A stretch of 64,000 bases of DNA, taken from positions 7,502,001-7,566,000 of the forward strand of contig NZ_CP120210.1 of NCBI RefSeq assembly GCF_029369745.1, read 5' to 3'. This document shows positions 2,361 through 39,888 of this stretch, one piece after another. This stretch comes from Amycolatopsis sp. QT-25. GTDB lineage: Bacteria; Actinomycetota; Actinomycetes; Mycobacteriales; Pseudonocardiaceae. The position numbers and the translations under genes were made by a program. Positions within the stretch are counted from its first letter, which is position 1. Each line of letters starts with the position of its first letter. The notes under the pieces are model-generated. The model did no database searches. It saw nothing but the letters and a program-made list of their open reading frames with translations, and was not told the origin of the DNA.

Positions 2361-2750
2361 TCACCCCTTGACGCAGATGACCTGCTTCAGGTGCGCGACC
2401 ACCTCGACGAGGTCGGTCTGCGCCTTGATCACCGTTTCGATGTCCTTGTACGCGGCCGGGATCTCGTCCACCACACCCGAGTCCTTGCGGCATTCCACCC
2501 CGGCGGTCTGCGCGGCGAGGTCTTCGGTGGTGAACAGCTTCTTGGCCTTGTTCCGCGACATCCGGCGGCCCGCGCCGTGCGACGCGGACTGGAAGGACGA
2601 CGCGTTCCCGAGGCCGCGCACGATGTACGAACCGGTGCCCATGCTGCCCGGGATGATCCCGAGGTCACCCGAACCCGCGCGGATCGCGCCCTTGCGGGTC
2701 ACCAGCAGGTCGACGCCGTCGTAGGTCTCTTCGGCGACGTAGTTGTGGTG
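2361..2750 (-). pseudogene. rtcB: RtcB RNA ligase, C-terminal fragment split off by prophage
   Basis: The C-terminal 126 codons of RtcB (from NYVAEE onward) plus the att core. It contains the SHGAGRRMSR motif, whose histidine is the residue guanylylated in characterised RtcB proteins, and ends VVAHLKQVICVKG. The rest of the gene is 36 kb away at 39076-39888. The reading frame continues into prophage DNA up to a possible start at 2909, so a phage-headed fusion fragment could be made, but it would lack all the N-terminal metal ligands and is unlikely to be active. Joining the two pieces across the 11-bp core gives an uninterrupted protein of about 396 aa, normal for the family. Confidence 0.93.
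2740..2750. other. attL: attL core
   Basis: TAGTTGTGGTG, identical to 39077-39087. On the minus strand it reads CAC CAC AAC TA, the His-His-Asn-Tyr codons of RtcB. Sequences on both sides diverge immediately, so the shared core is 11 bp. Confidence 0.9.
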
Positions 2751-2787
2751 GGTACAGAACCGCGCTGACCAGCACCGGAGCCCCGAT

Positions 2788-2809
2788 TCTGGGGCAGATC
2801 TGGGGCAAA
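2788..2809 (+). promoter_or_regulatory. Integrase arm-type sites, left prophage arm
   Basis: Two adjacent copies: TCTGGGGCAGA (2788-2798) and TCTGGGGCAAA (2799-2809). The same 11-mer occurs as a cluster near the other prophage end (38894-38935). A GCCCC inverted half-site lies just upstream at about 2780. Shared short repeats on both sides of the core in a tyrosine-integrase prophage are best explained as arm-binding sites for Int. Confidence 0.55.
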
Positions 2810-2810
2810 A

Positions 2811-4001
2811 ATGCTCGCGTTCGACCTCTACCGGCCGCATATTCGGCCGGCCTTGGCTGTCGTCACCGACCCGCCGGTCGCCCGGTTCACGCGGGCGCCG
2901 TACGTGCACGCCGTCGCGGCCTATCTCGTCGTGCGGGTCCTCGGCGTGGCGATGCTCGCCGTGATGGCGGCGCCGCGCGACCTGCCGCTGCTCGAGCGGT
3001 TGAGCGCGTGGGATGGCTGGTGGTACCTGCAGATTGCCGAGAACAACTACACCGGCGTGCCCGGACCGCTCGACGCGGCGGGCGAGTTTTTCCCTGCCGC
3101 GCCAATGGGTTTCTTCCCGCTATACCCCGGCGCCATGCGGGTGCTCGGCGAGCTTGGCGTGCCGTTGTTGGCAGCCGGGCTGATCGTGTCGACGGTCGCC
3201 GGCGTCGTCGCCGCGTGCGGCCTGCAGCGCATCGGCGAACGGGTCGGTGGGCAGCGCGTGGGCCTGGTGCTCGTCGTGATGTGGGCGGGCGCGCCGATGT
3301 CGATCACGCAGTCGATGGTGTACACGGAAAGCCTATTCGTCGCGCTCGCCGCGTGGGCGTTGGTCGGGGTCCTCGAGCGCCGGTTCGGCATGGCCGCGGT
3401 ATGCACGATGTTCGCCGGGCTGACCCGGTCGACCGCGGCCGTTCTGGTCGCCGTCGTCGTGGTCGCCGCGGTACTCGATGCCGTGCGCGGTCGCGGCCGC
3501 GGCCGGTGGCGGCTGCTTGGATGGGCGGCGATCGCGCCGTTGGGATTGGCCGGCTACTGGGGATTCGTCGCGGCGCGCACGGGCAGCCTGACCGGGTGGC
3601 AGGACATCGAACTACGCGGGTGGGGTGTTCGGTGGGACTGGGGTCGTGAAGCGGCCGAGTACACGGTGCAGCTGCTCACCCAGGAAGGCAGCCGGTTCGA
3701 GACGCTCGTGTTGGCCGTGACGGTCGCTGCGGTGGTCCTCGGCGTGGTCATGATCGCGCAGCGATTGCCGTGGCCGCTGGTCGCGTACGGGATCGGCGTC
3801 GCCGTCCTCGCGATCGGTACCGCCGGATTCCCTCAAATGCGGGGACGTTTCTTGCTGCCCGCGTTCGTGCTACTGCTGCCCATCGCCGTCGGCCTGGCGA
3901 AACGTCGCCCCTCGACGGCAGTAGCCGTGGCCGGGGCGTTCGTCCTGTTCGGCTGCTGGTACTCGGCGTACTCGCTCACCGCGTGGCAGTACGGCATCTA
4001 A
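2811..4001 (+). CDS. GT-C family mannosyltransferase-like membrane protein (PIG-V type), prophage accessory gene
   Basis: 396 aa, polytopic. After a first membrane helix (about 31-55) comes WDGWWYLQIAENNY (67-80), the first-loop aspartate signature of PIG-V-like GT-C enzymes, then FFPLYP (101-106), also typical, followed by about eight more hydrophobic segments. Family members use polyprenyl-phosphate sugars to glycosylate lipids or cell-wall polymers outside the membrane; the sugar here is a guess. The ATG at 2811 abuts the integrase arm sites, making this the outermost prophage gene. Position and plus orientation, opposite to the late operon, mark it as a lysogenic-conversion gene, for example one altering a surface receptor. 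Confidence 0.75.
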   Translation: MLAFDLYRPHIRPALAVVTDPPVARFTRAPYVHAVAAYLVVRVLGVAMLAVMAAPRDLPLLERLSAWDGWWYLQIAENNYTGVPGPLDAAGEFFPAAPMGFFPLYPGAMRVLGELGVPLLAAGLIVSTVAGVVAACGLQRIGERVGGQRVGLVLVVMWAGAPMSITQSMVYTESLFVALAAWALVGVLERRFGMAAVCTMFAGLTRSTAAVLVAVVVVAAVLDAVRGRGRGRWRLLGWAAIAPLGLAGYWGFVAARTGSLTGWQDIELRGWGVRWDWGREAAEYTVQLLTQEGSRFETLVLAVTVAAVVLGVVMIAQRLPWPLVAYGIGVAVLAIGTAGFPQMRGRFLLPAFVLLLPIAVGLAKRRPSTAVAVAGAFVLFGCWYSAYSLTAWQYGI

Positions 4002-4389: not shown

Positions 4390-5631
4390 ATGTCCGACTC
4401 GACCAGATTTGACGGCCAGTCTGACGAACTCCGGCGGTTTGGCGCCCGAGTCCGAGAGATTCGAAAATGGCGTGACCTTAGTGTCCGCACGACTGCTGAT
4501 CTTGCCGGGCTCTCCTATGGCTTTGTGGCCAAGGTAGAGCGTGGCGAGAAACCGGTGAACAACCGGCAAACGCTGGAGGCACTGGCCCTAGCGTTGCGGG
4601 TAGACCCCGGCGAATTCACCGGCGTTCCCGAGAAAGCAGGACGTGCGACAGTCGATTCGTACGATGCCGCGAACACGCTAGGCGACCTTCTTAGTGGCTG
4701 GTGGGTTGGCGAGGTTCCGGACGCTCCCGGTCGACCGTTGCCCGAGGTTCTATCCGGACTGATGGAATTTCACGCCTCGCGGAATCGTTCGGGAAAGTCT
4801 GGCGCTGGTGACTATCCAACCCAAGTCGCGAAGCTGGCACCGCTGATCCGTGATCTGCTCGCGATCGCGGCCGACCCGGTGGTCGGCCGCCAGGCTCTCG
4901 CGCCGCTGCTGACCGCGTACCACGTCGCGGGCTCTATCTCCGCGCGGCTTCGGGTGCCGAGTATGCCGTCGATGGCCGCGGAGCGTATGAAACAGGTAGC
5001 CGATCTCCTCGACGATCAGGTGTGGCAGTCGGTCGCGGCTTGGGGTCGAGCACATTTCATCTCGTCCACAGACCGGCCGCGACAGTACGCACTCGCCGTG
5101 TCGGCTGCTGATGCGGCACCGCCGGATCGGTTGGAGACGCGAGGAATGTCGAACCTCACCGCCGCTCTGGCCGCGGCCGCCCAGGGTAAGGGCGATCTCG
5201 CCGAGACTCATCTGTCGGAAGCTGCTGCGCTCGCTGAGCGAATCGAGCCGGACGTGTCGCCGTGGCCTGCAGGGATCATGCAGTTTGGCCGAACGAATGC
5301 CGGCATCTTCCATGTGTCGATCGGCGTCGAGCTAGGGTATGGCCCTCGTGTCGCTGAGATCGCGGCGACGGTACGCCCGGAGACCATCTCGGCCGCGCGG
5401 GCGTCGGCGTTCTGGACAGACTTCGGACGGGGTCTGATGGAGTCCCGTAAGCATCGAGATGCGGGAGTCGACGCGTTGCTGCGAGCCGAGTCGCTAGCGC
5501 CGTCGCAGGTGTACCGCAACCAGTTCGTGCGCGCGGCGGTATCGCACGCTCTGCCCACGGCGCATCGAGACGCGACCGGCCGAAATCTGCGAGGTTTGGC
5601 CTGGCGTATGGGGCTTGCCCCAACCGGGTGA
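4390..5631 (+). CDS. XRE-family regulator with large helical C-terminal domain
   Basis: 413 aa. Residues about 15-70 form an XRE helix-turn-helix (FGARVREIRKWRDLSV, TTADLAGLSYGFVAKVERGEKP, NRQTLEALALALRV). The remaining 340 residues are alanine-rich and helical with TPR-like character, as in many actinobacterial regulators that sense a peptide or small ligand. The start is the ATG at 4390 behind GAGGGA. It heads a run of five small overlapping genes and has palindromes on both sides (4282 and 5638). It is separate from the CI/Cro switch at the other end of the prophage, so a second regulatory circuit is likely. Confidence 0.8.
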   Translation: MSDSTRFDGQSDELRRFGARVREIRKWRDLSVRTTADLAGLSYGFVAKVERGEKPVNNRQTLEALALALRVDPGEFTGVPEKAGRATVDSYDAANTLGDLLSGWWVGEVPDAPGRPLPEVLSGLMEFHASRNRSGKSGAGDYPTQVAKLAPLIRDLLAIAADPVVGRQALAPLLTAYHVAGSISARLRVPSMPSMAAERMKQVADLLDDQVWQSVAAWGRAHFISSTDRPRQYALAVSAADAAPPDRLETRGMSNLTAALAAAAQGKGDLAETHLSEAAALAERIEPDVSPWPAGIMQFGRTNAGIFHVSIGVELGYGPRVAEIAATVRPETISAARASAFWTDFGRGLMESRKHRDAGVDALLRAESLAPSQVYRNQFVRAAVSHALPTAHRDATGRNLRGLAWRMGLAPTG

Positions 5632-10677: not shown

Positions 10678-11817
10678 TCAGGCGACGTCGTCGAGCAGCG
10701 GGCCGCAGGTGAGCCGCACGGTTTCCTTGTCCTCGCCGGGCGAGATGGACATGCCGATGATCCGCAGGCTGGTGTCGATCCCGGTGGGCACGAAATCGTC
10801 CTCGATGATCACGTGCGCGTCGTCGCCGAGTCCCCATTCGCCGACGATCGGTGACCGGTCGCCGCGCACCTCCAGTTGCGGCAGGACCACCGGCAGACGC
10901 GAGGCGAACAGGTCGGCATCGGCGTGCTGCTGCAGCGTGTCGACGTTCGACACGGTGGTGTAGGCGGTCTCCGATTCGATGAGGGGGAAACCGCCGGCGT
11001 AGCGGCTGGTGTCCTCGGCGACGGCGATCAGGGTTCCGTCGTCGGATCCCTCGCCGGTGGCGTAGCCGCGGGAGGCGTAGCGGGTCGCATCCGATGGCCA
11101 CGTGTAGTCAACCAAGTTGGCGCCGAACTCCCACACCCACGGCGATCCTTGCTGTCCGAGCCACGGTGTTCCCTGCCGGAAAAGCCTTGTGGGCCTGCCG
11201 TTGGTGTCGGGCCCGCCGGAGTCGAACATCATGTCGGCGCCGCCCTCGACCGCGGCGAGCTGCCGCAGCGCCTCCCCCACCCACGGCAGTTCGTATCCGG
11301 CGTACTGGCGGGTTCGGTCGATCAGCGACAGCGACGTGTCGCCGACGATGCCGAGATCGCCGCCGGTGTGTACTTGTGCCGAGGCGACCAGTCCGCGGGC
11401 GATGTCGTTCTGATCGCCGCTGAACGTCAGCCGCAGTTCGGCGATGTCGTAGGCGGGCGCCACCGGAAAACTCAGCAGCGGCACCACCTTGCGGTGATCG
11501 AAGTACGTCCACCAGTCGCCGCACCCGATCTCGACCGTGCGCGAGGTCGAGTTGTATCGGCGGGTCCAGATGATCCCGCCCCACATCACCTTGTCGTCGC
11601 GGTAGACGTACAGGCACCGGCGGCCGGGCATCGTGAGGTCGTACGGGTCGCGCACCTTCCGGAACGGGTTCGTCCGTGACTCGACGGAGAATGCCCCGCG
11701 CGCCGCCCCGGAGTCGTTGAGCCGCTTGGAATACTCCACACCGGACAAGGGGAGTTCGGCGAGCGGGGCGTTGGTCAGCAGGTCGTGCACCATGTAGGTG
11801 TAGAGCGGCGCGGCCAT
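10678..11817 (-). CDS. Gp37-like baseplate/tail-tip protein
   Basis: 379 aa. Begins MAAPLYTYMVHDLLTNAPLA with a strand-rich domain (GVEYSKRLNDSGAARGAFSV), then CLYVYRDDKVMWGGIIWTRR, a pattern seen in siphovirus ReqiPepy6 Gp37-like tail-tip proteins that resemble T4 gp27-type hubs. The final part (IGMSISPGEDKETVRLTCGP) fits the same family. It shares one base with the stop of the next upstream gene, so the two are coupled. Expected role: tail-tip hub contacting Dit and the tape measure. Confidence 0.7.
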   Translation of the reverse strand: MAAPLYTYMVHDLLTNAPLAELPLSGVEYSKRLNDSGAARGAFSVESRTNPFRKVRDPYDLTMPGRRCLYVYRDDKVMWGGIIWTRRYNSTSRTVEIGCGDWWTYFDHRKVVPLLSFPVAPAYDIAELRLTFSGDQNDIARGLVASAQVHTGGDLGIVGDTSLSLIDRTRQYAGYELPWVGEALRQLAAVEGGADMMFDSGGPDTNGRPTRLFRQGTPWLGQQGSPWVWEFGANLVDYTWPSDATRYASRGYATGEGSDDGTLIAVAEDTSRYAGGFPLIESETAYTTVSNVDTLQQHADADLFASRLPVVLPQLEVRGDRSPIVGEWGLGDDAHVIIEDDFVPTGIDTSLRIIGMSISPGEDKETVRLTCGPLLDDVA

Positions 11818-13034
11818 CAGATACCGATGTCCTCGATGAGCAGTTCACGGACCCGGACCGAGTCCACGCTGCCGGTGCCGGAGTTGACGAACGACGAGAC
11901 TCCGAACGTGACTTGCCCGGTAAAGGTCGCGATCCAGTACGACTCGCGGGTCACGGTCCGGAAGGAACCGGGTGGCGCGTCGGTGTGCAGCTGCAGTTGC
12001 GTCGAGCCCGCAAGGTCGATCGTGCCGCCCGCCTTGTACCGGTACTGCACGTTGAGGATGTTCGAGGCGCCCGCCTCGCTGCGCACGTGCGTGACCTTGT
12101 ACCGGCGACCGTTCACTACGGTGCCGGTCGCGGTCTCGGACTGGATCAGGTTCGCCGTCGTGATGCTGCCCGCACCGGTGAACGTGCCGTAGGCGATCAC
12201 ACCGCGCGGGGCCGCGGCGTTGACGAGACTGATCGTGGCGTTCCACGCGGACCCGGTCCACCGGTACAGGACGTTGTCGGTGGTGAGGATCGCCAGTTGC
12301 CCGGCGAACGGGTGGGTGATGTCGGCGAGCGACCCGGTGGTCACGGTGCCCTGGCACTGCCACGTGCCGGTGGTCCCGTTGTAGACCTCGGTCCATCCCT
12401 TGTCGCGGCGGTAGATCGTGAGCCCCGGAACCGCCGGCAGTGCGGCGCGTTCGGTCACGTTCGCGACCGGGACGACACCGCCGAGTGCGACGACGCGCGC
12501 CGGGCGCAGGTCGTCGATGATCGCGCCGGTGATCGTGGTCGCCCCGGCGCCGATCCGGATCCGCGCCAACAACAGATAGTCCGGATACAGCCCGCCTTGA
12601 GTGGGGTCGGGGTCGACCGGGCTACCGGCCGCGGTGCCCTTGACCCGCATCACGGTGTACGCGGTGGAGCCGTCGGCGTAGTAGGTGTCGGTCTGCCGGG
12701 CGATGATCAGGTCGCGCCTGGCGTTGGACGGGTCGGCCGGGTCGGTGCCCAGCACGTTGAGGGTCTTGTCGGCGTCGAGCGTCGCGATGTACGGGCCCAT
12801 GCCGCGGGTGGCCGGGATAGCGGCCTGGAACGCGGACACCTTGACGTTGACGTCCGGGGTCGGCGCGGTCGCGGCGACCAGTCCCGGAGTTCCGGCGGCG
12901 TTGATGATCCCGACGCTTTTCGCGGTCGCGGTCGCGCCGGGCTGCAGTAGCGCACCGAACGCCACGCGGGAATCCTCGGCGTCGACCACGCGGGTAGCGC
13001 CGTTCATGGTCGCCCAGCTATCACGCTCAGCCAC
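11817..13034 (-). CDS. Minor tail / tail fibre protein
   Basis: 405 aa. An N-terminal domain (VAFGALLQPGATATAKSVGI) typical of actinophage tail fibres is followed by repeated strand-rich segments (YRRDKGWTEVYNGTTGTWQC; LYRWTGSAWNATISLVNA) and a C-terminal beta-sandwich-like part. Probably a distal tail protein carrying a receptor-binding domain. The next gene downstream starts in a 1-base overlap; upstream, a plus-strand gene separates it from Dit. Confidence 0.65.
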   Translation of the reverse strand: MAERDSWATMNGATRVVDAEDSRVAFGALLQPGATATAKSVGIINAAGTPGLVAATAPTPDVNVKVSAFQAAIPATRGMGPYIATLDADKTLNVLGTDPADPSNARRDLIIARQTDTYYADGSTAYTVMRVKGTAAGSPVDPDPTQGGLYPDYLLLARIRIGAGATTITGAIIDDLRPARVVALGGVVPVANVTERAALPAVPGLTIYRRDKGWTEVYNGTTGTWQCQGTVTTGSLADITHPFAGQLAILTTDNVLYRWTGSAWNATISLVNAAAPRGVIAYGTFTGAGSITTANLIQSETATGTVVNGRRYKVTHVRSEAGASNILNVQYRYKAGGTIDLAGSTQLQLHTDAPPGSFRTVTRESYWIATFTGQVTFGVSSFVNSGTGSVDSVRVRELLIEDIGI

Positions 13035-13087
13035 GGCGGAACCTCCGTTCTCGTAACGCTCTGGGGTCGAGCGGGGATAGTTGGCTC

Positions 13088-13783
13088 ATGGATCAAAGGT
13101 GGAAGCGCGCCGCACTCGTGGGTGCGGGCGTTCTCGTGCTTGTCGTCGCCACTGTTGTGACATGGGGCGTCCTGCAAGAAAAGAAAGCGGATTGGTTCTC
13201 CGCTTGGGCATCTGGAGCAAGCGCCATCGTTGCCACCTTTGCGTTACTCGCCGCAGGCGTGGCAGCCAACGCAACTATTGCAACGAACCGCAACCAGTCC
13301 GAACAACTAAGAAGACTGGAGGAAACAAATCAACGGGAGCTGGCATCTAAGTTCGGCGTCTGGATAGAGGATAGATATCCTAATTTCGGGTATGTCCACA
13401 GTTGGCGTCACCAAATTCATTACCACAACGCCGGACCTCTGCCTATGTTCGCCGTCGAGGTGCTCATTCATTTTGGAAATCAGACGCTCAAGATCACGCG
13501 CAATACTCTTGCGCCCACCAAGGAGGTAACGGAAATCCAGTCGGCCAGCAACTCAATGCGCGATTTCGTCACTGAAATAGCTGCAGAAAGACTGAAAGAG
13601 TTACGTCCTCAGGAAACTGAGCCCGACGAAATCAGTAGCGAGTGGCAGGATTGGTCCGAAAAAGTTGAGCATTTGAGGACCACTTTACTAAAGTGGACCG
13701 AACTTTCGTTGTCGGTAGAATTTTCCGATGGTGAGTACCGGTGGCGACGAGAAGCCAATGGATCACTTTCTCGTATCTCTTAA
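13088..13783 (+). CDS. Plus-strand membrane protein inserted in the tail operon (moron candidate)
   Basis: 231 aa, encoded against the direction of the surrounding tail genes. Two N-terminal membrane helices (AALVGAGVLVLVVATVVTWG and AWASGASAIVATFALLAAGV) are followed by a soluble domain (WRHQIHYHNAGPLPMFAVEV and LKWTELSLSVEFSDGEYRW). Codon use is clearly less GC-rich at third positions than neighbours (many AAA, GAA, ATT, ACT), suggesting recent acquisition. It has its own short upstream region with GATAGT about 10 bases before the ATG. Such genes are often expressed in the lysogen and alter susceptibility to other phages; that is inference here. Confidence 0.75.
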   Translation: MDQRWKRAALVGAGVLVLVVATVVTWGVLQEKKADWFSAWASGASAIVATFALLAAGVAANATIATNRNQSEQLRRLEETNQRELASKFGVWIEDRYPNFGYVHSWRHQIHYHNAGPLPMFAVEVLIHFGNQTLKITRNTLAPTKEVTEIQSASNSMRDFVTEIAAERLKELRPQETEPDEISSEWQDWSEKVEHLRTTLLKWTELSLSVEFSDGEYRWRREANGSLSRIS

Positions 13784-13811
13784 GAAGACTGCTCACGTCA
13801 TCGGACTGCTT

Positions 13812-14699
13812 TTACTGGTAGGCGTCGTGCCAGGTGGCGCGAAGTTCGGCGGCCGGGTCGTAGACGCCGCCGGTGAACTGGATCCGGGTCGGCTCGCCGG
13901 GTTCGAGCGGTGTCCACTGCGCGACGAACAGCCGTTGCCGCACGCTCACGCCGTTGATCTCGACGGTGCGGGATCCGGGCGCGGTGTCGATCCGCAGTGT
14001 TTGCCCGTCGAGGACGGTCCACGCGGGATCGAACATCAGGATGCGGCCGCCGTAGATGATCTGTGGTCCGGGCACCGGGCCGTCGATCTCGAGCACCGGC
14101 CACGTGGGCACGTGCCCGCCGTTGGTGGCGATGGCCTGCCCGCCGGTGGTGCCGGGACCGAAGTCGAGCCCGCCCCCGCCGAAGTCGAGCCCGCCGAATC
14201 CGAAGTCGAGCCCGCCACCGGCAGGCACCGCGAGCCGCGTGGAGACCGTCTTCTCGGCCACGCTGTAGAGCCGCGGGTCGTTGGCCTCCCAGGAGACCGC
14301 ACCGGCGACGTAGCCGACGTTGGCGTACTTGAGGTCAGTCGGGGTCGACCGGCGCTTGACGCGGGCGTTCACGAGCACGGGTAGCCCGTCGAGCTGGATC
14401 ACCAACGGTTCGTTGCCGGGGTTCTCGCCCGGTGCGGTGATCCGGCGCAGGGTGTCCAGCGCGGCCGGTAGTCCGGGATGGTCGCCGCGGTAGATCCATT
14501 CCCACACGACCTCGCGGTCGGTGGAGAGCAGCTGACCGAGGTAGCTGCCGTGGTAGCCGGGCAGCGCGGTGTTTCCGCCGCGCTGCCCCGGCAGGTCCCA
14601 CACACCCGCTATCCGGGTGGTGCCGAACACGGTGTCGCTGCCGAGCAGGGTGCCGCGCCACTCGAGCTGACCGTCGAGGGTCACCAGCTCGCCCGCCAT
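13812..14699 (-). CDS. Distal tail protein (Dit-like)
   Basis: 295 aa. Starts MAGELVTLDGQLEWRGTLLG and contains phage tail-family features (VVWEWIYRGDHPGLPAALDT; VNARVKRRSTPTDLKYANVG) of Dit proteins, which form the ring joining tail tube to tip. A glycine-rich stretch repeats a GGLDFG unit three times near residues 166-190. The order tape measure, Dit, tip hub is conserved in siphophages and supports the call. It shares one base with the tape-measure stop. Confidence 0.75.
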   Translation of the reverse strand: MAGELVTLDGQLEWRGTLLGSDTVFGTTRIAGVWDLPGQRGGNTALPGYHGSYLGQLLSTDREVVWEWIYRGDHPGLPAALDTLRRITAPGENPGNEPLVIQLDGLPVLVNARVKRRSTPTDLKYANVGYVAGAVSWEANDPRLYSVAEKTVSTRLAVPAGGGLDFGFGGLDFGGGGLDFGPGTTGGQAIATNGGHVPTWPVLEIDGPVPGPQIIYGGRILMFDPAWTVLDGQTLRIDTAPGSRTVEINGVSVRQRLFVAQWTPLEPGEPTRIQFTGGVYDPAAELRATWHDAYQ

Positions 14700-16849
14700 C
14701 AGTAACCCCCGCTCTTGGAAAACCAGTCGAGATCGGCCGCGACCTCGCCGGGCGAGGCGTTCGCGGGCGGGTGGTAGTTCTCGATGTGGACCAGCGACCG
14801 GCCGCCGGATCCGCCGGCGGCCGCGGTCGCGCCGGGCGGGCCGCCACCGGCCGCGCCGTACCCGGCGCCGAGCGTCCCGCCGAGACCGCCCGCACTGGCG
14901 GCGATCGACGGGCCGATCGTGCGCACGAACCCCTGCACGAGACCGAAGTTCTCGACCAGGGATTCGTGAAAGCCGCGCATGATCGCCTCACCGGCGGGCT
15001 GCAGAATCGTCCGGTCATACGACAATGGGCCCTTGTGCGCGGCAATCCACGACGCGATGCCGCCCACGAAATCGGTCACGGCGCCCCACGCGTTCTTGAG
15101 ACCCCGCAGGAAACCGTCGAGGATCGCACGTCCGGCACCGACCAGCAGTCCGCCGAGATCGCCGAGCGCGCCGACGATTCGTCCGGGGATGCTGGCCACA
15201 AAGCTGACCGCTTCATCCCATCGGATGCGGATCCAGCGGGTGACCTCGCCGAACCACCCGGAGATCTTGCCCGGCAAGGAACCGAACCAGGAGATGGCCG
15301 CGGCGATCCCGTCGATGGCGCGGGAGGTCAGCCCCTTGACGAATTCCCAGGCACCGCCGAAAACATCGACGACGAATTTCACGACGGCGCCGAGCAGTTG
15401 CAGGCTGAACGCGTGGAATTGCACGATGTGCCCGAGCAGGAACGTCAGCGCGGGCGCCAGGAGATTGATCAGGAACGCGGCGAGTTCGGCGACCAGGGTG
15501 ATGATCGGCGTGAGCGCGAGGACCAGTTCGGCGATCGGCGGTAGCAGCTGCACCAGCGGTGGTAGCAGCTGCACAAAGGCGCCGATGAGCGCGCCGAGCA
15601 CGGGCGATATCGCTTGCAGGATTTGGAGAATCGCTGTGCCGAGGGTGGACGCGAGCTGACCGAGAACCGGCAGGACCGGCATGATGGCGGCGGCGAGCTG
15701 CCGCAGGGTGTCGGCCGCGAACTGCGAGATCAGGGTCATGATCTGCGAGACGATCGGCACCAGCTGGACCAGGATCGGCGCGAGCGCGCTAGCGAACTGC
15801 GCGGCGATCTCGGCGATGGCAGGCACCAACGGCAGGATCGGCGCCAGCAGCGACAAGAACGCGGGCACCAACGGCGTGACGGCCTGCAGTACTTGCGTCA
15901 GCGCCGGGATCAGCGATCCGGTGAGCAGCCCGCCGAGCTGCGTAAAGATCTCGGTCACGGCCGGTCCGGCTGCCTCGAACACCCCGACCAGCGCGTCGGC
16001 GAGCGGGCCGAGGGCCGTAGCGACCTGGACAAAGACGGGGCCGAGCTGCTGAATGACCGGGATCAGCGCGCCCGCTAGCCCGTCCACGAGGGACACGATC
16101 ACGGGCAGCAGCGCCTCAAGGATCGGGCCTCCTGCTTGGGCGAGGGTCGCGAGGACGGAACCGACCGTGGCGAGGATGTCGCCGAGCGCGGGGCCGAGCG
16201 CCGAGAACGCCTGTCCGACCGCGGAGGCGGCAGGAGCCAGATTCGCCGCGAACTGACCGACACCCGCGCCGAGTGAGGTCAGGAAGTTTGCCAGTCCGTC
16301 GAACACCGGTCCGGCCGAGGTGATCGCGGTCAGCAGCCCCGGCATGGCCTGCGACGCGAAACCGGTGATGCCGTCGGTGAGGGTGGTCAGGTAGGGGCCG
16401 ACCGCCGAGAACGCCTGTCCGATCGACGGCGCCAGTTCGTCGAACGTCCCTCGCAGCTGCCCGGCGATCTCCGCGAAGTACGGAACCAACGGGGCCGCGA
16501 GGCTGGTCAGCTGCTGTTTGACGTGCGAGCCCAGCGAGCTGAACGCCTGCGCGACCACGGCGTTTTCCTTGAGCACCAGGGCGCCGAGACCGGCGAACGC
16601 GAGCGGTACCGCGGCGAGCGCACCACCGGCCACCAGCGCACTCGCCGAGGCGACCGCCCCGAATTTCACGAACGTCTGAGTGAGTCCGAGGATGCTCTGC
16701 GCGTTGCTCTGCGCCATGCCCGCGGTGTACTCACCCGCCGAGCGCATCACCCCCGCCGTGACGAGTGCCTCCCGCCGGATCTCCCGGAACACACTCGACA
16801 CGCCGTCACGGCCGAGGATGTCGAACAGCAGGGACGTATCGGAGGCCAT
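14699..16849 (-). CDS. Tape measure protein
   Basis: 716 aa, by far the largest phage gene. It is almost entirely helical and alanine/leucine-rich with repeating hydrophobic blocks (VPAIAEIAAQFASALAPILV; QIMTLISQFAADTLRQLAAA), as expected for the protein that sets tail length and is threaded through the tube. It lies between the tail chaperones and Dit. The C-terminal part is glycine-rich. By the usual rule of about 1.5 angstrom per residue this predicts a tail of roughly 100 nm. Confidence 0.9.
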   Translation of the reverse strand: MASDTSLLFDILGRDGVSSVFREIRREALVTAGVMRSAGEYTAGMAQSNAQSILGLTQTFVKFGAVASASALVAGGALAAVPLAFAGLGALVLKENAVVAQAFSSLGSHVKQQLTSLAAPLVPYFAEIAGQLRGTFDELAPSIGQAFSAVGPYLTTLTDGITGFASQAMPGLLTAITSAGPVFDGLANFLTSLGAGVGQFAANLAPAASAVGQAFSALGPALGDILATVGSVLATLAQAGGPILEALLPVIVSLVDGLAGALIPVIQQLGPVFVQVATALGPLADALVGVFEAAGPAVTEIFTQLGGLLTGSLIPALTQVLQAVTPLVPAFLSLLAPILPLVPAIAEIAAQFASALAPILVQLVPIVSQIMTLISQFAADTLRQLAAAIMPVLPVLGQLASTLGTAILQILQAISPVLGALIGAFVQLLPPLVQLLPPIAELVLALTPIITLVAELAAFLINLLAPALTFLLGHIVQFHAFSLQLLGAVVKFVVDVFGGAWEFVKGLTSRAIDGIAAAISWFGSLPGKISGWFGEVTRWIRIRWDEAVSFVASIPGRIVGALGDLGGLLVGAGRAILDGFLRGLKNAWGAVTDFVGGIASWIAAHKGPLSYDRTILQPAGEAIMRGFHESLVENFGLVQGFVRTIGPSIAASAGGLGGTLGAGYGAAGGGPPGATAAAGGSGGRSLVHIENYHPPANASPGEVAADLDWFSKSGGY

Positions 16850-18364: not shown

Positions 18365-19099
18365 TCAGGCGATGCCGAGGGCAACGACGAACAGGAACGA
18401 CGGGGCGGTGCCGGTGATCGTCCATTGGGGACGGAACCACGTGTCGGTGATCGGGCCCGGTGCGCGGATGATCTGCCCGCCGAGCGCATCGGCGGCCGCG
18501 AACGACGCGACGTCGGCCGGGGAGGCGAACGTGTTGTCGACGTCGGACTCGATGCCGAGGGTGATCGACGGCGAGCCGGTGCCCGCGATCGACAGGACGT
18601 GAGCCGCGGCGTAGAGATGCTTTCCGGCGGGGACGGCGCCGACCTGGATCCCGGAACCGGTGCCGGTCGCGGTGCGGGCGGTGCCGGGCGGGTGTGCGAC
18701 CTTGCCGCGGACCAGCGGCCACGACCCCTTGGCCTCGCCTTCCCACGGCGCGACCGCGCCGACCTGGTCGCCGAGCTTGTACTTGCCCGACATCGCCACC
18801 GTGAAGTAGGCGAGCGCGCCGAGGTCGGCCCGGTCCGGGCACGCCGTCCACGGGCCGAGCCCGCCGAGTTCGGACCACCGGGCATCGTCGACCCGTCCGG
18901 GGTCGCCCGCCTCCCACTGGCCCCCGCCGGACAACTCGGTCTCGGCGAGCCCGCCGATCACCTCTTTCCAGCCGCCCGAACCGAAGTTCGTCCGCGCCTC
19001 GTCGGACACCTCGGCGGACAGCTCGAGCTTGTTCGAGGATCCGGTGAGGTCGGCGCCGCCGGTGAACAACCGGCAGTTGAGCAGCACGAAATGCGACAC
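18365..19099 (-). CDS. Second tail tube-like protein (paralogue with long C-terminal domain)
   Basis: 244 aa from GTG 19099. The first half resembles the 136-aa tail protein next to it (LELSAEVSDEARTNFGSGGW, then KEVIGGLAE). The second half is an extra strand-rich domain (KYKLGDQVGAVAPWEGEAKG; LSIAGTGSPSITLGIESDVD). It may be a decorated tube subunit, a terminator-proximal ring or a stalled duplication product. The frame continues upstream to 19786 through neighbouring genes as shadow sequence. Confidence 0.6.
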   Translation of the reverse strand: MSHFVLLNCRLFTGGADLTGSSNKLELSAEVSDEARTNFGSGGWKEVIGGLAETELSGGGQWEAGDPGRVDDARWSELGGLGPWTACPDRADLGALAYFTVAMSGKYKLGDQVGAVAPWEGEAKGSWPLVRGKVAHPPGTARTATGTGSGIQVGAVPAGKHLYAAAHVLSIAGTGSPSITLGIESDVDNTFASPADVASFAAADALGGQIIRAPGPITDTWFRPQWTITGTAPSFLFVVALGIA

Positions 19100-21908: not shown

Positions 21909-22050
21909 GTCGACGTCGTCCTCCCTCCCGCGTGGCGGGGATCGTTGTTCTGTCGGATGGCCCTGCGGGCAGCAGGCGGTGACACCCAGACCAGGCCACG
22001 CGGGCGCGGTGCGGGGTTCCTTACGCGAAGCAGCAGGGAAAGCGCGCCGT

Positions 22051-22809
22051 CTATAGGCGGCGCATCCTCGTGTCCTCGTCGGTGATGAGGACACGAGACG
22101 GTGCGGGGGTCGTGGTGAAACGGGCCTGCAGCGCGGCGAGCGCGGCGCGGGCCTGGTCGTCGTCGAGCGCGCGCAGCGCCTCGAGCGGATCCGCGGCGCG
22201 CATCCCGGCGCCGGCGGTGTGCGGGTTGGCGCCGTAGCCGACGATCGCGACGTCGCCGCGGTGCAGGTCGAACGCGTTGATCCGGTATTCGCTGTAGTCC
22301 GGCGACCACTGCCCGGACGTGATCCGGAACTTAAACGACATCTCGTCGACCAGCCCGGCGCGCAGCTTGGGCACGATGTAGGCCACGTCCTGGTCCTCGC
22401 GGTCGAGGTTCGGCGCGAGGACACGCAGCCCCTCGTCGGACTCGGTCAGCTGCAGCGACCCGTTGGTCGTGCGCGCGATGCGGCGCAAGTCCTGGTGCTG
22501 CAGCACGAGCGGCACGTCGAGGTCGGCGCGGGCAAGGCTTTCACTCGCCGCACCGGCGGACACCACTTCCGTGTAGGGACCGTAGTAGTCCCACATCTCA
22601 TAGCCGCGGTCGTACACCGTGGCGAATCCGTCGAACTCGAGCCCGCCACCGGTCGCGGAGTCGCGCAGCTGCAGCCCGCGCAGCTGCGCCGACACGCGCG
22701 GCGGCGTGGTGTCGTGTTCGGCCGCGCGCCGCTGCGAGGGCCGGTCAGCCCGCGCGGCAACGGCGCGGCTGCGTTCGGCGGCCGCGGCCGCGCGAGACTC
22801 GGGGGTCAT
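22051..22809 (-). CDS. Prohead protease
   Basis: 252 aa. Contains FDGFATVYDRGYEMWDYYGP, then VPLVLQHQDLRRIARTTNG with the catalytic-type histidine, and VDEMSFKFRI with the serine of HK97-family (U35-like) prohead proteases. The N-terminal 40 residues are arginine/alanine-rich. It cleaves the capsid delta domain during maturation. Shares a 4-base overlap with the portal gene stop and lies directly before the capsid gene, the canonical order. Confidence 0.88.
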   Translation of the reverse strand: MTPESRAAAAAERSRAVAARADRPSQRRAAEHDTTPPRVSAQLRGLQLRDSATGGGLEFDGFATVYDRGYEMWDYYGPYTEVVSAGAASESLARADLDVPLVLQHQDLRRIARTTNGSLQLTESDEGLRVLAPNLDREDQDVAYIVPKLRAGLVDEMSFKFRITSGQWSPDYSEYRINAFDLHRGDVAIVGYGANPHTAGAGMRAADPLEALRALDDDQARAALAALQARFTTTPAPSRVLITDEDTRMRRL

Positions 22810-23969
22810 GTCGTCGCTCCTGACTCTGCAGTAGTGGGCTGCGTGCGGGGGTTGCCGAACAGCCGGTCGAACTCGGCGAGCTGCTCGTCGGTGAACGGCA
22901 TCCGGTTTTCCAGCGCGCGGGCCTCGGACGGCGCGAGCTGCCGCGTGGCGATCTGCTTACCGATCACCTCGGCGCGGGTCTGCGGGTCCATCCGCAACAG
23001 CGCGTCGCTGTTGAGCTTCACGAACCGCGGCCGCGGCAACAGGTCCGACAGCGCGGACTCGCGACGGAAGATGGCCGGGCCGATATTCATGATGAGCAGC
23101 TGCAGGTTGCGTTGACTGATCGACGCGTACGTGATCGACCCGGTGGCGACCGCGCCGTCGATGACGTCGGCCGGACATCCGAAGAACCGGGCGATATCGA
23201 CGATCCCGAACTGCTGCACCTGCAGGAAATTCGCGTCCGAGGCCATCGCCTGGATCGGCTGGTATTCCCAGTCCTTGCCGTGCACGAACAGGTCACGGTT
23301 GGCGACGGATGCTTTGAACCGCTGCTTAATCGCGGTCGCCTCCACCGGGCTGACCGTCTTCTCGGTGTTGCGAAGTTCGCCGGCGGGGATCGCGCCGTCG
23401 GTGAACCAGTCGAGCGCGAACTGCTGCGCCGAGAGGTACTGACCGATGCTCATGGCCGAGTAGGAGGTCGGCGACAGTCCGATCGGGAGACCGGCGACGG
23501 TGAACTGCTTTTCGTGCCAGATCTGGGCAGGCGTGTACTTCTGCCGACGGATCCGGTAGTGGTCGATCTGGCCGTCGATGATCCGCACGGTGACCTCGCC
23601 GAGGTCGACCAGCTCAATCCGCGCAGGAAGGCCAAGACCGTCGAACGCGGTGATGATGCCGAACGTGTTGCCCGCGCGGTCGAGGTCGACCTGCGTCGAG
23701 TACAGGAACTCGTGCAGCTTCATCCGCTCGCCGCCCGGCGCGACCAGCACGGGCGGTTTCTTCGTCTCGACCTGGATCCCGTCCACCATGCGGTAGGCGT
23801 CGACCGGCATCGTGGAAATCAGGTCGCCGCGCAGCCGCAGGCACGCCCATACCGCACTGTGCTGCATCGCGGTCTTGTTGGTGACCACGGCCGTACCGGT
23901 GCGGCCGGACACCGGCCGTGCGGGGATCTGCGAGTCGTCCACGGTGGACGCGCGAGAGAACAGGCTCAC
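22806..23969 (-). CDS. Portal protein
   Basis: 387 aa from GTG 23969, which overlaps the preceding stop as GTGA. Family features include AMQHSAVWACLRLRGDLIST at the N-terminus, RMKLHEFLYSTQVDLDRAGN, and LLIMNIGPAIFRRESALSDL near the C-terminus (HK97-type portal). It forms the dodecameric channel for DNA entry and exit. The frame extends upstream to 24089 through the small membrane gene, but that is shadow. Confidence 0.88.
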   Translation of the reverse strand: MSLFSRASTVDDSQIPARPVSGRTGTAVVTNKTAMQHSAVWACLRLRGDLISTMPVDAYRMVDGIQVETKKPPVLVAPGGERMKLHEFLYSTQVDLDRAGNTFGIITAFDGLGLPARIELVDLGEVTVRIIDGQIDHYRIRRQKYTPAQIWHEKQFTVAGLPIGLSPTSYSAMSIGQYLSAQQFALDWFTDGAIPAGELRNTEKTVSPVEATAIKQRFKASVANRDLFVHGKDWEYQPIQAMASDANFLQVQQFGIVDIARFFGCPADVIDGAVATGSITYASISQRNLQLLIMNIGPAIFRRESALSDLLPRPRFVKLNSDALLRMDPQTRAEVIGKQIATRQLAPSEARALENRMPFTDEQLAEFDRLFGNPRTQPTTAESGATT

Positions 23970-24195: not shown

Positions 24196-25716
24196 TCACC
24201 ACACCGAATCCAGCACGTCGTAGTCATCGATCACCAGGTGCGCGCGGCTCTCGTATGCCCACCGGGCAACGGTTCCGCCCACCAGCGGCGCGATATTCGA
24301 GTCGCTCGTGCGGCGGGCCCATGCCCACGCGTCGCCGAGCGGGCGAGTACGTGCGCCGGTCAACGCCTCGTTGAGCGGTCGCTGATTGAGATGACGCAGG
24401 CGGTCGTGCTCCACTGCATCGGCGAACGCGCCGCACGATGCGGCGAACTCCCTAGCCGTCGGGATCGCGAGCTGCCCGCGCCCCGGCTTCATCGGATCCT
24501 TCGGTGTCGTGAATCCGGCATTGTTGAGCGAAACAAGCAGCGACCCGGCGGGCCCTGCCACGTCGAGACCGACCGCGATGGGGTTGTGCCGGTCGCGCAG
24601 TTCGACCAGCCGCTCGACCACGCCGTCGGTGCCGTCGCGCAGCTCGCTCACCTCGACGTGCCCGCGGCCATCCGGGCGGTGCCCGTAGGCCATGATCGCG
24701 GTTTTCTGTCGGTCCGGTGTGATATCGACCGCGAGCGCCACGTCGGCCGCGGTCGATCGCGCGTCGTGCCGGTCCGCCCACCACTTGGTGGGCACGTTCG
24801 GGTCGTCGGCGACGACCACCACTTTCGTGACGTTGAGGTAGGCGCGGTCGAACTCGCCCGCCTCCATCTTGCCCCGCTCGCTGCGCACGGCGGCCTCGGC
24901 GACGGTATGGCCGAGCGCGGGCATACACGACCACCAGGTCGCCGGGTCGTCCCGGTCGTAGACGTCGCCGACGGTCCAGTCGAACACGGCGAACGTGGAC
25001 GGCTCGCCCGCCTCGACGATCGCGCGGCCGCGCTTGCGCTTGCCGTTGAGGAAATGCGACTTCGCGAGCGTGCCCGCGGTGGACACCAACCACTGTTGCG
25101 GTTGCGGCCGCGTGATCATCGCCGGAGAGAACGCCTGTTCCAACCGGGAATCCTCGAGCGCGAACGCCTCGTCAATCGTGCCGTCGTCGAGCGTCTCGCC
25201 GTGGCCGGCGGTCTCGGTGTTCGAGGTGATCCCGTGCCGCGACCCGTTGCGCCACCGGATCGCCTCGTTGCCGTTGACCTTGCGCACGGTGTAGCGGCCC
25301 CGGAAACGCTGCGCAGCGTCGAGCGCGGCCACGTGTTCCTCTTCCCACTTCTTACGGGCCGAGAGACGGTTCTGCGCCGAATAGAGGATGTTCTGCCGCG
25401 GCCACGCGTTCGCCCGCCACACCATCTTGGCGAGCAACAGCGTGGTCTTGCCCGACTGCCGGGGCACCATCAGCAGGATGTCGCGGTAGGCCAGACGTCC
25501 GGTGACGGGGTCGACCTCGAGCGCGACGTCGGCGACGTAGCGCTGCCACGGCATGAACGGTGTCCCGAACGCCTCGGCGATCCGCGCCACCTTGGGCCCG
25601 TAGGTCTTCCGTGACGGGTCGCGCGGCGTTCCCCACCGGGGAACACACCGCAGCCCGTATAGGTCGAGCAGCTGCGCCCTCAGGGCTTCTGTTCGGTCCT
25701 CTTCGGACAGCGGCAC
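24196..25716 (-). CDS. Terminase large subunit
   Basis: 506 aa, GTG start with GGGAGG seven bases upstream. The ATPase has a Walker A (LLMVPRQSGKTTLLLAKMVW) and a Walker B-like TIDEAF; the nuclease domain shows ALAVDITPDRQKTAIMAYG and the terminal TRPLGDAWAWARRTSDSN. It packages DNA into proheads and cuts concatemers. The next gene downstream starts across its stop (15-base gap-free region), indicating one operon. Confidence 0.92.
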   Translation of the reverse strand: MPLSEEDRTEALRAQLLDLYGLRCVPRWGTPRDPSRKTYGPKVARIAEAFGTPFMPWQRYVADVALEVDPVTGRLAYRDILLMVPRQSGKTTLLLAKMVWRANAWPRQNILYSAQNRLSARKKWEEEHVAALDAAQRFRGRYTVRKVNGNEAIRWRNGSRHGITSNTETAGHGETLDDGTIDEAFALEDSRLEQAFSPAMITRPQPQQWLVSTAGTLAKSHFLNGKRKRGRAIVEAGEPSTFAVFDWTVGDVYDRDDPATWWSCMPALGHTVAEAAVRSERGKMEAGEFDRAYLNVTKVVVVADDPNVPTKWWADRHDARSTAADVALAVDITPDRQKTAIMAYGHRPDGRGHVEVSELRDGTDGVVERLVELRDRHNPIAVGLDVAGPAGSLLVSLNNAGFTTPKDPMKPGRGQLAIPTAREFAASCGAFADAVEHDRLRHLNQRPLNEALTGARTRPLGDAWAWARRTSDSNIAPLVGGTVARWAYESRAHLVIDDYDVLDSVW

Positions 25717-26455: not shown

Positions 26456-26911
26456 TCACCAGTCACGCGACGTCGCGAAGTGCTCGACCGGTTCCGGTTC
26501 CTCCGTGCTGGGCAGGTAGCGGGCGTACCACCGGTGGATGGCGGGCACGCTGCCCGGCGGCCGGCGGTCTGCTCGTGCGCGGCGTATGCACTCGTCGCGT
26601 CCGGGGTCGAGCAGGATCAATTCGGCGCGCAGCCGGTCGACCAGCGCGGCGCGCTGCGCCGCCACCGGCAGGGAGCGCACCACGTACACGATGCCCTCGC
26701 GGGCCTTGGCTATCCGGTCAAGCTCGAGCCGCATCACCTGTTCGGCCTGTCGGCTGTATGCCCTGCTGTGCAGCCACCGGCGCGGGCTACCAAGGGATCG
26801 GGCGATCTCGTCACGATCGAGCACGCGGCCGCCGTTCTTCTCGGCGAGCTTGTGCGCGAGCGTGGTCTTGCCCGCGCAGATCGGGCCCGCGATCACCACC
26901 ACCTGCCGCAC
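26456..26911 (-). CDS. P-loop nucleotide kinase (polynucleotide kinase-like)
   Basis: 151 aa from GTG 26911 (MRQVVVIAGPICAGKTTLAH). A Walker A GPICAGKTT is followed by a DRDEIARSLG element and an arginine-rich lid (GRDECIRRARADRRPPG), the plan of small AAA/PNK-like kinases that phosphorylate nucleic-acid ends or small molecules. No phosphatase domain. It sits between a zinc-ribbon protein and the small terminase, so a role in DNA-end or nucleotide processing during late infection is possible. Confidence 0.7.
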   Translation of the reverse strand: MRQVVVIAGPICAGKTTLAHKLAEKNGGRVLDRDEIARSLGSPRRWLHSRAYSRQAEQVMRLELDRIAKAREGIVYVVRSLPVAAQRAALVDRLRAELILLDPGRDECIRRARADRRPPGSVPAIHRWYARYLPSTEEPEPVEHFATSRDW

Positions 26912-35892: not shown

Positions 35893-36129
35893 TCAGGAGG
35901 CGACGCGGAACCGGCGGATGCCGCGTGACGGCGGCTGCTTCTCCATCCAGCGATTGGCGTCGTCGATGTGCACGAACCGCTTGCCGTCCGGGCCGGACGG
36001 CTGCATGTTCTTGAGACCGCGTTTGCCGTCCGAGCGGTCGTACTCGAGGCATTTCTGCTGCACGGTCCGGACGTGCATCCGCAGATAGTCCGCGGTTTCC
36101 TGCAGCGTCATCCACGGTGATTCGGTCAT
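35893..36129 (-). CDS. Excisionase-like HTH protein
   Basis: 78 aa. The N-terminal part (MTLQETADYLRMHVRTVQQK CLEYDR) is a MerR/HTH_17-type DNA-binding fold, with a wing-like FVHIDDANRWMEKQP, the usual plan of phage excisionases and small DNA-bending proteins. It overlaps the Cro-like stop by 4 bases, so it is co-expressed with lytic entry, which fits a recombination directionality factor for the integrase. Confidence 0.65.
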   Translation of the reverse strand: MTESPWMTLQETADYLRMHVRTVQQKCLEYDRSDGKRGLKNMQPSGPDGKRFVHIDDANRWMEKQPPSRGIRRFRVAS

Positions 36130-36634: not shown

Positions 36635-36637
36635 CAA

Positions 36638-37710: not shown

Positions 37711-37742
37711 TTTGCAACGCAGAACACATAGGAGGTCGAGAA

Positions 37743-38993
37743 ATGCCTTGGGCCGATCCGTACCCCGGAGGTGGTTTCCGTGGCGGTTACCGCGATAGCG
37801 CGGGTAAGAAGCAGTATGTAAAGGACCTCAACGGGAAGGCCGTTCGTTACGAGACCAAAACAAAGGCAAAGAATGCTGCGAACGAAAAGGAAGTCGACGC
37901 GCGCCGCAAGGCTGCACCTTCCGAAGTGCCGATCGCGGCGACGACCCCGTGGGGCGAATGGTGGGATCGCCTGGCAGAGAAGCGCACCTTTGACGACACG
38001 GACACCGCCTCTACCGAGGCGGGCATTGTCAAGAACTATCTTCTCCCCAAGTGGGGTGACGTCCCCCTAAACGCCATTTCCTTCAAGGCTGTTGACCTTT
38101 GGGTGCAAGAAGGGGATCTCAAGGTGCGCCCCGGCATGTCCCCCGGTTATGTGCACCGCATTTTCAGCGTGTTCAACGTGTCGATTAAGGCAGCGCTGAA
38201 AGCGGAGATCCTCATGGCATCGCCGCTCGCCGGAATTAAACTCCCGAAGAGACACAAGAAGGCCAAACCTTACCTTTCGACCAAGGCGAACACGGCCATG
38301 CGGACGCACCTTCGCGAGGACTACCGAGATGCCCTCGAGTTCGGGCTCGAAACCGGTCTGCGCCCCGGCGAGCTGTGCGGTCTGCACTCCGATCGCGTCG
38401 ACCTGGACCGCGGATGGATGCTGGTCGCCGAGACGTTCGTCAAGCGGCGCGGGATCATCCGCCCGTACCCGAAGGACGGCGACGTGCGGTCGGTGCCGCT
38501 GACCGACCGGGCATGTGAGATCGCTGCACGTCGCATCGCCGCGCGCGACGAAAGCAAGGGATGCGGATTCGTCCATACCGACGGCTTGCCGTGCAGTGGC
38601 GTTCTGGTGTTCTTGACGGTGCGCGGGCGGATCATGCACCCGGACACGATGGGCTACCACATGAAGAACGCCGCAGAAAAGGCCAAGGTGTCCCGGCGCA
38701 GCCCGTACGCCGTCCGTCGAGGATGGGCTACGCGTGCCGCTGAGGGCGGGCTCGATGCGTTCCAGATTGCCGAGATCCTCGGACACTCCACCCTCGACAT
38801 GGCACAGGAGTACGTGCAGCAGACGTCGGCCGCGCGGATGAAACTTACGACGGCGCTCGCCGCATACCCGCAACTCACCGTGCTTGCGGGCGGTCTGGGG
38901 CAGACCTCGAATGCTGGGGCAGAATCTGGGGCAGACGTCGACTCGCAGGCAATCGCACAAGATCGCAAACGGTCGCGTCAATCTGCCGGTTGA
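37743..38993 (+). CDS. int: Tyrosine integrase
   Basis: 416 aa with AGGAGG six bases before ATG 37743. N-terminal arm-binding part (GGFRGGYRDSAGKKQYVKDL), a core-binding SAM-like domain (about 70-170), and a catalytic domain: Arg207 in TGLRPGELCGL, a lysine in KDGDVRSVPL, YAVRRGWATR (322-331), GHS at 347-349 and nucleophile Tyr357 in QEYVQ. Box II normally starts with histidine (H-x-x-R); here residue 322 is tyrosine. A non-catalytic tail of about 50 residues is encoded by the DNA holding the arm sites. It lies 83 bases from the attR core. Confidence 0.9.
   Translation: MPWADPYPGGGFRGGYRDSAGKKQYVKDLNGKAVRYETKTKAKNAANEKEVDARRKAAPSEVPIAATTPWGEWWDRLAEKRTFDDTDTASTEAGIVKNYLLPKWGDVPLNAISFKAVDLWVQEGDLKVRPGMSPGYVHRIFSVFNVSIKAALKAEILMASPLAGIKLPKRHKKAKPYLSTKANTAMRTHLREDYRDALEFGLETGLRPGELCGLHSDRVDLDRGWMLVAETFVKRRGIIRPYPKDGDVRSVPLTDRACEIAARRIAARDESKGCGFVHTDGLPCSGVLVFLTVRGRIMHPDTMGYHMKNAAEKAKVSRRSPYAVRRGWATRAAEGGLDAFQIAEILGHSTLDMAQEYVQQTSAARMKLTTALAAYPQLTVLAGGLGQTSNAGAESGADVDSQAIAQDRKRSRQSAG
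38894..38935 (+). promoter_or_regulatory. Integrase arm-type sites, right prophage arm
   Basis: TCTGGGGCAGA at 38894-38904 and 38925-38935, with GCTGGGGCAGA at 38913-38923. They lie inside the 3' end of the integrase gene and match the pair at 2788-2809. In circular phage DNA both clusters would flank the core in the same orientation. Confidence 0.55.
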
Positions 38994-39075
38994 CCAGGGG
39001 ATACAGTCGCGTAATCTGACACAGACTCGCAGACGCTCGTAAACGTAAATCCGCTGGTCGGCGCGGTGTTGCTAC

Positions 39076-39888
39076 CTAGTTGTGGTGACACGAGATCGCG
39101 TCGTCGAACGTCGTCCGCGGGACGACGTCCTTCAGCGCCTGCTTCACGAGCGCGACCATGGTGGCGCGGTTGCGCGCCGCGTAGTCCTGCGCCCAGAACA
39201 GGTCTCGCCGGTACGCCCGCATCTCCGGCGTGCCCGCGACGAACACGGCGAGGTCCGGATCCGGCAGGTCCGCGTTGTGCGGCAGCTTCCGCGCCACGGC
39301 CATGTGCCGTTCCGCGAGTTCCTTGCCGATGTTGCGCGAACCCGAGTGCAGCATCAGCCACACGCGGCCTTCGTCGTCGCCGCCCTGTTCGAGGCAGACC
39401 TCGATGAAGTGGTTGCCGCCGCCGAGGCTCCCGATCTGACGCGACGCGCGGTCGTGCAGGTCCTGGACGCCGGGATGCAGGTCGCCGAAGGACCGCCAAA
39501 ACGCGTCCCAGCCACCGACCCCGTGCACCTTCGCCGGGTTCACCGGGGTCTTGTGCAGGCCGAAGCCGACCGGGACGGCCGATTCGATCCGGCGGCGGAG
39601 CTTCAGCAGGTCGTCGGGCAGATCGGCGGCGGTGAGCGAGGTCCGTACCGCGCTCATCCCGCAGCCGATGTCCACGCCGACGGCAGCCGGGGACACCGCG
39701 TCGCGCATCGCGATCACGCTGCCGACGGTCGCGCCCTTGCCGTAGTGGACGTCGGGCATGACCGCGACGCCGTGCACCCACGGCAGGTTGGCGACGTTGT
39801 GCAGCTGCCGCATGGCCTGGTCCTCGACCGACGTGGGGTCGGCCCACATCCGGATCGGCACCCGCGAGCCTTCGACCGCCGTGTACAT
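39076..39888 (-). pseudogene. rtcB: RtcB RNA ligase, N-terminal fragment
   Basis: 270 aa from ATG 39888 (MYTAVEGSRVPIRMWADPTS) ending ISCHHN then TAG; the stop arises from the core TA plus a phage G. Contains the metal and nucleotide-binding motifs GVDIGCGMSAVRT, QIGSLGGGNHFIEVC and MLHSGSRNIGKELAERH. The GMP-accepting histidine is missing, being in the fragment at 2361-2750. RtcB joins 2',3'-cyclic phosphate or 3'-phosphate RNA ends to 5'-OH ends in RNA repair. The fragment keeps its native start, so a truncated protein could be made. Confidence 0.93.
39077..39087. other. attR: attR core
   Basis: TAGTTGTGGTG, identical to 2740-2750. Flanked on the left by phage DNA and on the right by the intact rtcB codons for ISC. 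Confidence 0.9.

Follow-up and report, generated by a model that had tools for sequence, protein, structure and literature searches.

A siphophage-like prophage inserted at the His-His-Asn-Tyr codons of rtcB in Amycolatopsis sp. QT-25

The 64,000-nucleotide stretch of the Amycolatopsis sp. QT-25 genome analysed here (the window), part of a single contig of 8,010,145 bases, contains the RNA ligase gene rtcB in two parts, separated by an element of 36,337 bp between two short identical cores. Very probably the element is the genome of a temperate siphophage whose host is Amycolatopsis-like and whose own tyrosine integrase inserted it into the only rtcB gene, with the DNA of the His-His-Asn-Tyr (HHNY) codons as the bacterial attachment site (attB). 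That it is a prophage had been proposed in a first-pass annotation, and this is borne out by a virion gene set, a tyrosine integrase, identical cores at the two junctions and an uninterrupted site in relatives. The terminase, portal, major head, major tail and tape-measure genes, all recognised by matches to PHROGs, place it among the siphophages. The features on which the argument turns, including the cores of the left and right attachment sites (attL and attR) and the putative arms of the phage site (attP), are:

2361..2750, minus strand: C-terminal part of rtcB, HHNYV to the stop codon, carrying the HGAGR histidine (PF01139 profile positions 276-426)
2740..2750, plus strand: attL core TAGTTGTGGTG, from a string search of the window
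2788..2807, plus strand: two TCTGGGGCA repeats in the left attP arm, possible integrase arm sites
37743..38993, plus strand: tyrosine integrase, 416 amino acids (PF00589 E-value 2.7e-19, PHROG 1), ending 83 bp before the right core
38895..38935, plus strand: three CTGGGGCAGA repeats in the right attP arm, inside the 3' end of the integrase gene, possible arm sites
39076..39888, minus strand: N-terminal part of rtcB, 270 amino acids, ending His-His-Asn-TAG (PF01139 E-value 8.7e-70)
39077..39087, plus strand: attR core TAGTTGTGGTG, from the same string search

The longest string common to both junctions is the 11-bp core, and a search of the window on either strand finds it at these two sites only, in keeping with the earlier claim that the junctions share nothing but a core encoding HHN(Y). 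When the flanks are joined without the 36,337 bp, they form an open frame of 408 codons to the stop, 396 of them from the ATG, which is the length the first-pass annotation had predicted for the restored gene. An empty site is present in relatives: in genome G137 (locus L164) the window flanks 355-2750 and 39077 onward match an uninterrupted rtcB and overlap by exactly the 11 bp of the core, and the same overlap is seen in five other relatives displayed (6 of 40 displayed in all). The junctions are thus those of a site-specific insertion—shared core and empty site—and the exactness of the overlap argues for a clean event and not chance. An attachment site in a tRNA gene was rejected, as there is no tRNA in the window and none in 10 integrase loci. 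A 16-mer of the attR junction occurs in 18 viral stretches; tblastn matches neither the rtcB nor the integrase of the window to any of them, and these hits were taken as chance, as were eight-base partial core matches in other integrase loci.

Searched over the whole 8.01-Mb genome, PF01139 gives two matches, which are the two rtcB halves; they cover profile positions 1-285 (with one in-frame TAG) and 276-426 of 426, and so make up a full-length member of the family. With no other rtcB match in the assembly, a second copy rescuing the lysogen, which the first-pass annotation had foreseen as the main objection to any physiological consequence, was rejected. The N-terminal half reads ...SCHHN-TAG, the TAG being supplied by phage DNA, and the C-terminal half continues from HHNY without the earlier RtcB motifs. 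Counted along an alignment with Pyrococcus horikoshii RtcB (1uc2), the second His and the Asn of the core correspond to His329 and Asn330, and the HGAGR histidine of the C-terminal half aligns with His404, the residue that is guanylylated. The proposed separation of a metal-binding half from a half with the guanylylated histidine therefore stands as to the His404 equivalent, and is refined in that HHN is present on both halves. The lysogen should lack RtcB ligase activity. Among the two families searched for a backup ligase, RNA_ligase (PF09414) has one match below the cut-off (25.7 versus 27 bits) and RtcA (PF01137) has no match in the genome.

The integrase is a tyrosine recombinase, with R207, R325, R326, G347 and Y357 invariant in eight aligned rows; the His of the GH motif varies among these rows. 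The Arg, RRG, His and Tyr positions are the catalytic ones in this family. We suggest that the integrase crosses over within the 11-bp core, that insertion would abolish RtcB activity in the lysogen, and that precise excision would restore the gene. Relatives of the integrase were found in 38 of 390 genomes of the family at an E-value of 1e-20, and of the 12 loci listed three (G000, G091 and G187) are at rtcB. No rtcB match lies within about 1.5 kb of eight relatives in genomes (L048-L055), and a scan of genome contigs yields two loci, that of Amycolatopsis azurea at rtcB and another that is 24% identical.

The search of actinobacterial genomes for integrases flanked by rtcB halves that the first-pass annotation had suggested was carried out and reveals two other prophages at this site. 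One, in a genome of the same genus taken as A. azurea DSM 43854 (G091; L013, NZ_MUXN01000017.1), is a 34.7-kb element at the identical rtcB junction, with a 12-bp shared core and an integrase 83% identical to the window's; 40 of the 52 genes predicted wholly inside the window element match it (tblastn, E-value 1e-5). The other, in a second genus of the family (G187), is 41.2 kb long with a 13-bp shared core, an integrase 45% identical, and its own terminase, head and tape-measure genes; only 7 of the 52 genes match, in a search covering all but its last 1.2 kb. IMG/VR contig 3300044656_000238 (L067/L204) encodes an integrase 48% identical, and 91 bp after its stop codon is a 19-bp match to the rtcB site, GACGTAGTTGTGGTGGCAG; as no rtcB match occurs within the 9-11 kb examined, this is an attP. 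A search with an alignment of the G187 and L067 integrases added only L067 and one 41% relative. In the integrase tree, whose root serves drawing only, the window and A. azurea form one pair and G187 and the IMG/VR contig another, each strongly supported. The 19-mer is present in 33 IMG/VR stretches in total, and the other 32 (L181-L203 and L205-L213) carry the exact site inside an rtcB match that is either complete or truncated where the stretch ends.

Two further integrases were followed up. Locus L062 (G110:C4:3962813-3964073) has pieces of a related integrase, 77 and 84% identical and in two frames; there is no rtcB within the 8 kb fetched, and the genome has one strong rtcB match elsewhere, so the locus appears to be what is left of a related phage that had inserted at a different site. 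The integrase of Saccharomonospora phage PIS 136 (JX006077) is the first of 60 phage records at an E-value of 1e-5, with 43% identity over 85%. The full 11-bp core was not found in 7 kb of this phage, which was provisionally set aside as an rtcB phage; partial matches remain, namely the core pieces GTTGTGGTG and TAGTTGTG just upstream of the integrase gene (L063 2750-2830), which may be chance or a diverged attP.

Conservation of the site was assessed in 40 intact rtcB genes chosen among the best matches listed: the window's genus supplied 20, other genera of its family 16, and four belong to no member of that family. The exact core is present in 30 of the 40 and HHNYV in all, this being one of 11 invariant runs of at least four residues, which agrees with the earlier expectation that attB should exist in many hosts. 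Of 1178 11-base windows, 12 (the core included) are exact at least as often as the core, which ranks 18th by mean mismatches. There is no rtcB match in 83 of 390 genomes of the family and in 2 of 79 other genomes of the genus, and we conclude from these counts that rtcB is dispensable. The most likely reasons for the use of this site would be that the HHNY codon run hardly varies, which would place attB in many hosts, and that loss of a dispensable rtcB would let lysogens survive.

Insertions of other kinds are found at the same codons. One is a 4.6-kb element that encodes a large serine recombinase (PF07508, PF00239) and interrupts rtcB at the HHN codons, sharing GTTGTGGTGG, in G711, a genome of the class but of a different family. 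Relatives of this recombinase were found in 36 of 180 genomes at an E-value of 1e-30, and of the 12 loci listed only G711's own is at rtcB, so this class of insertion rests on one genome; a viral scan found none. Intein-like inserts lie between Ser/Asn and CHHN in five genomes, each in one open frame in G117, G069, G073 and G076 and with the frame broken inside the insert in G399; others lie just after HHNF in G1117 and at DIAC in G1036. LAGLIDADG-like stretches and, in G1036, HNH-like ones were read by eye. In all, 11 large inserts were recognised in rtcB, 10 at or against HHN and one, an intein, at DIAC; these are the recognised cases and no census, as full-length best matches with extra matches and other single partial matches were left out. 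They come from overlapping surveys of 390, 394 and 376 genomes with follow-ups of 28, 13 and 30. A rough model gives 4e-4 for 5 of 6 lineages sharing one of 11 invariant runs, a generous figure that supposes equal chances per run, independent lineages and runs defined from the 40 picked genes, and that ignores unequal conservation at the DNA level and kinship among inteins.

A number of split or partial rtcB matches were examined and rejected as insertions: adjacent pieces or frameshifts in G025, G328, G203, G285 and G964, deletion-like cases in G299 and G317, pieces at or probably at contig ends in G386, G1048, G1068 and G1110, and a partial duplication with the middle part of rtcB repeated in G753 (L124, G753:C2). 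Profile gaps near 85-140 in several genomes were likewise judged not to be insertions. The gene is present only in part in, for example, G031, G194, G817, G1054 and G1078, and the phylum survey contains other single partial matches (e.g. G1016, G1075 and G1076).

Several explanations of the interrupted gene were weighed. A reading in which rtcB is a plain pseudogene of this strain, holding a defective or permanently fixed prophage, is doubtful, though it keeps some weight: members of the family tolerate having no RtcB, but the integrase, terminase, portal, protease, head, tail and tape-measure frames are all open, both cores are present, and the rtcB halves have neither stops nor gaps. The first-pass annotation had favoured active lysogeny, in which the prophage would excise without killing the cell and restore rtcB, placing RNA repair under phage on/off control. 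In its favour are the single rtcB, a frame that precise excision would restore (the 396-codon join and the empty site), the undamaged state of the two halves, and reversible elements published in other genes (PMC5296598). Against it are the virion gene set, the dispensability of rtcB in many relatives, and the fact that a recent insertion would be just as free of decay. In a comparison of 13 rows over 392 codons, 6 synonymous and 3 nonsynonymous codons are unique to the window halves, the latter versus 0-1 in the eight nearest intact relatives (which have 0-11 unique synonymous codons); the likewise split gene of A. azurea has 3 and 0, respectively. The halves fit a recent insertion, perhaps with slight relaxation, and regulated excision and youth would leave the same picture; since decay does not separate these two, we place an ordinary temperate phage first and regard active lysogeny as unlikely and the earlier claim as unsupported. 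Under ordinary temperate integration, losing RNA repair is probably something that the host tolerates as a by-product and not a regulated switch.

A lysogen might also gain from the loss of RtcB, for example if superinfecting phages were denied a tRNA-repair ligase and tRNA-cutting defences worked better. Convergence of several elements on the active site, the rtcB match on 32 of the 33 IMG/VR contigs with the 19-mer, and a tRNA-repair role proposed for phage RtcB (PMC3203893 and PMC13313380) speak for such a gain, but site conservation explains the convergence without any benefit, and inteins would splice out and leave RtcB in place. Because inteins at HHN would keep RtcB, site conservation is favoured, and we find a benefit from RtcB loss highly improbable. 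A broader proposal, which we hold to be very unlikely as a whole, is that two lineages of tyrosine-integrase phages, homing inteins and an element with a large serine recombinase have all come to use the HHN codon run as a general landing site, and that a prophage there may both remove the host's tRNA-repair ligase and integrate into the rtcB of competing phages (phage-on-phage interference). Such integration is conceivable because 32 IMG/VR contigs hold the 19-bp site inside an rtcB match.

Some observations weigh against integration by the phage's own integrase as we describe it. The 11-bp core is short, and the strand-exchange site is placed by position; the match of the putative excisionase is weak; and integration is deduced from the assembled sequence, excision being predicted. 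The two rtcB-targeting integrase lineages group together in 0 of 200 bootstrap trees, so a single inherited rtcB specificity is unsupported; taken by themselves, the strongly supported branches are compatible with one origin as well as with two. The frame of the C-terminal half continues without a stop into phage DNA, where an ATG (2840) and a GTG (2909) lie in frame, in an extension antisense to the phage gene at 2811-4001, and assembly of the rtcB fragments is conceivable.

Prophages that sit in functional genes and excise under regulation are known, for example in comK and hlb. As in these, a host protein gene is split here and precise excision would restore it; unlike these, rtcB is a dispensable RNA-repair gene, and its restoration is predicted from sequence. 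Inteins of RtcB are known in archaea, and the intein-like inserts described above are similarly at active-site motifs (five before CHHN, one after HHNF and one at DIAC); an intein splices out of the protein, whereas the prophage does not. Mobile integrase-bearing elements in a conserved amino-acid motif of mutS, reused across taxa and in some strains excising so that the gene is rejoined, provide a precedent for a repair gene as target (PMC5296598). As in the window, the target is a conserved coding motif in a gene for nucleic-acid repair; those elements lie near the gene start and supply a new promoter and start, so that MutS is made (same source), whereas in rtcB the cut falls within the active site and a stop codon directly follows HHN. 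The Gifsy-1 prophage controls the Salmonella RNA repair operon through generation of the signal for the activator RtcR (PMC9879122); it too affects the availability of RtcB, by way of that signal, whereas the window prophage interrupts rtcB itself.

No description of rtcB as a host attachment site was found in the portion of the open-access literature searched, a negative that falls short of proof and that accords with the first-pass remark that its author was not aware of rtcB as such a target; in a survey of actinobacterial prophages 'rtcB' is absent from the main text, the site table being in its supplement. What is new is the target gene of a prophage of known kind, and the finding that several insertion machineries have converged on a single run of active-site codons. 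A single-copy RNA-repair gene thus joins the list of prophage targets, and the presence of two integrase lineages, a serine recombinase and inteins at one run lets the idea that codon conservation alone sets the hotspot be tested. The role of RtcB in actinobacteria is poorly known. Natural lysogens are predicted to be RtcB-negative, and curing the phage could test that role; in addition, vectors for Amycolatopsis could be given a new integration site by means of the integrase and attB.

Besides the genes named so far, the element includes a protease, a Dit-like gene and a helix-turn-helix (HTH) regulator. The phage genes annotated are:

2811..4001, plus strand: first gene of the prophage after attL, without a PHROG or Pfam match at an E-value of 0.01; hydrophobic by eye; its counterpart in the A. 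azurea prophage is 91% identical
4390..5631, plus strand: HTH transcriptional regulator, candidate repressor (PHROG 5823, PF13560)
10678..16849, minus strand: tail genes, whole block (PHROGs)
10678-11817, minus strand: minor tail (PHROGs)
11817-13034, minus strand: virion structural (PHROGs)
13812-14699, minus strand: minor tail/Dit-like (PHROGs)
14699-16849, minus strand: tape measure (PHROGs)
18365..19087, minus strand: major tail protein (PHROG 9522)
20508..21908, minus strand: major head protein (PHROG 2263)
22051..22809, minus strand: head maturation protease (PHROG 80)
22806..23969, minus strand: portal protein (PHROG 12)
24196..25716, minus strand: terminase large subunit (PHROG 9)
35893..36129, minus strand: excisionase-like HTH protein, weak match (PHROG 66, E-value 1.9e-4; HTH_17 below cut-off)

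The terminase large subunit matches 1711 phage records, every one with less than 60% identity. A P-loop kinase-like protein (PF13671, AAA_33) is encoded at 26456-26911 (minus strand) and may be a nucleotide or nucleic-acid kinase. The prophage also encodes an SsgA-like sporulation/cell-division protein (PF04686; 34387-34833, minus strand) and a protein carrying the FtsK gamma domain (PF09397; 33117-33779, minus strand), which to our knowledge are unusual phage cargo. The head module (20127-24181, minus strand) differs from that of the A. azurea prophage (L216/L217), the portal being 30% identical and the protease and major head protein unmatched at an E-value of 1e-5; the nearest matched genes that flank it are 71-95% identical between the two prophages, which points to module exchange.

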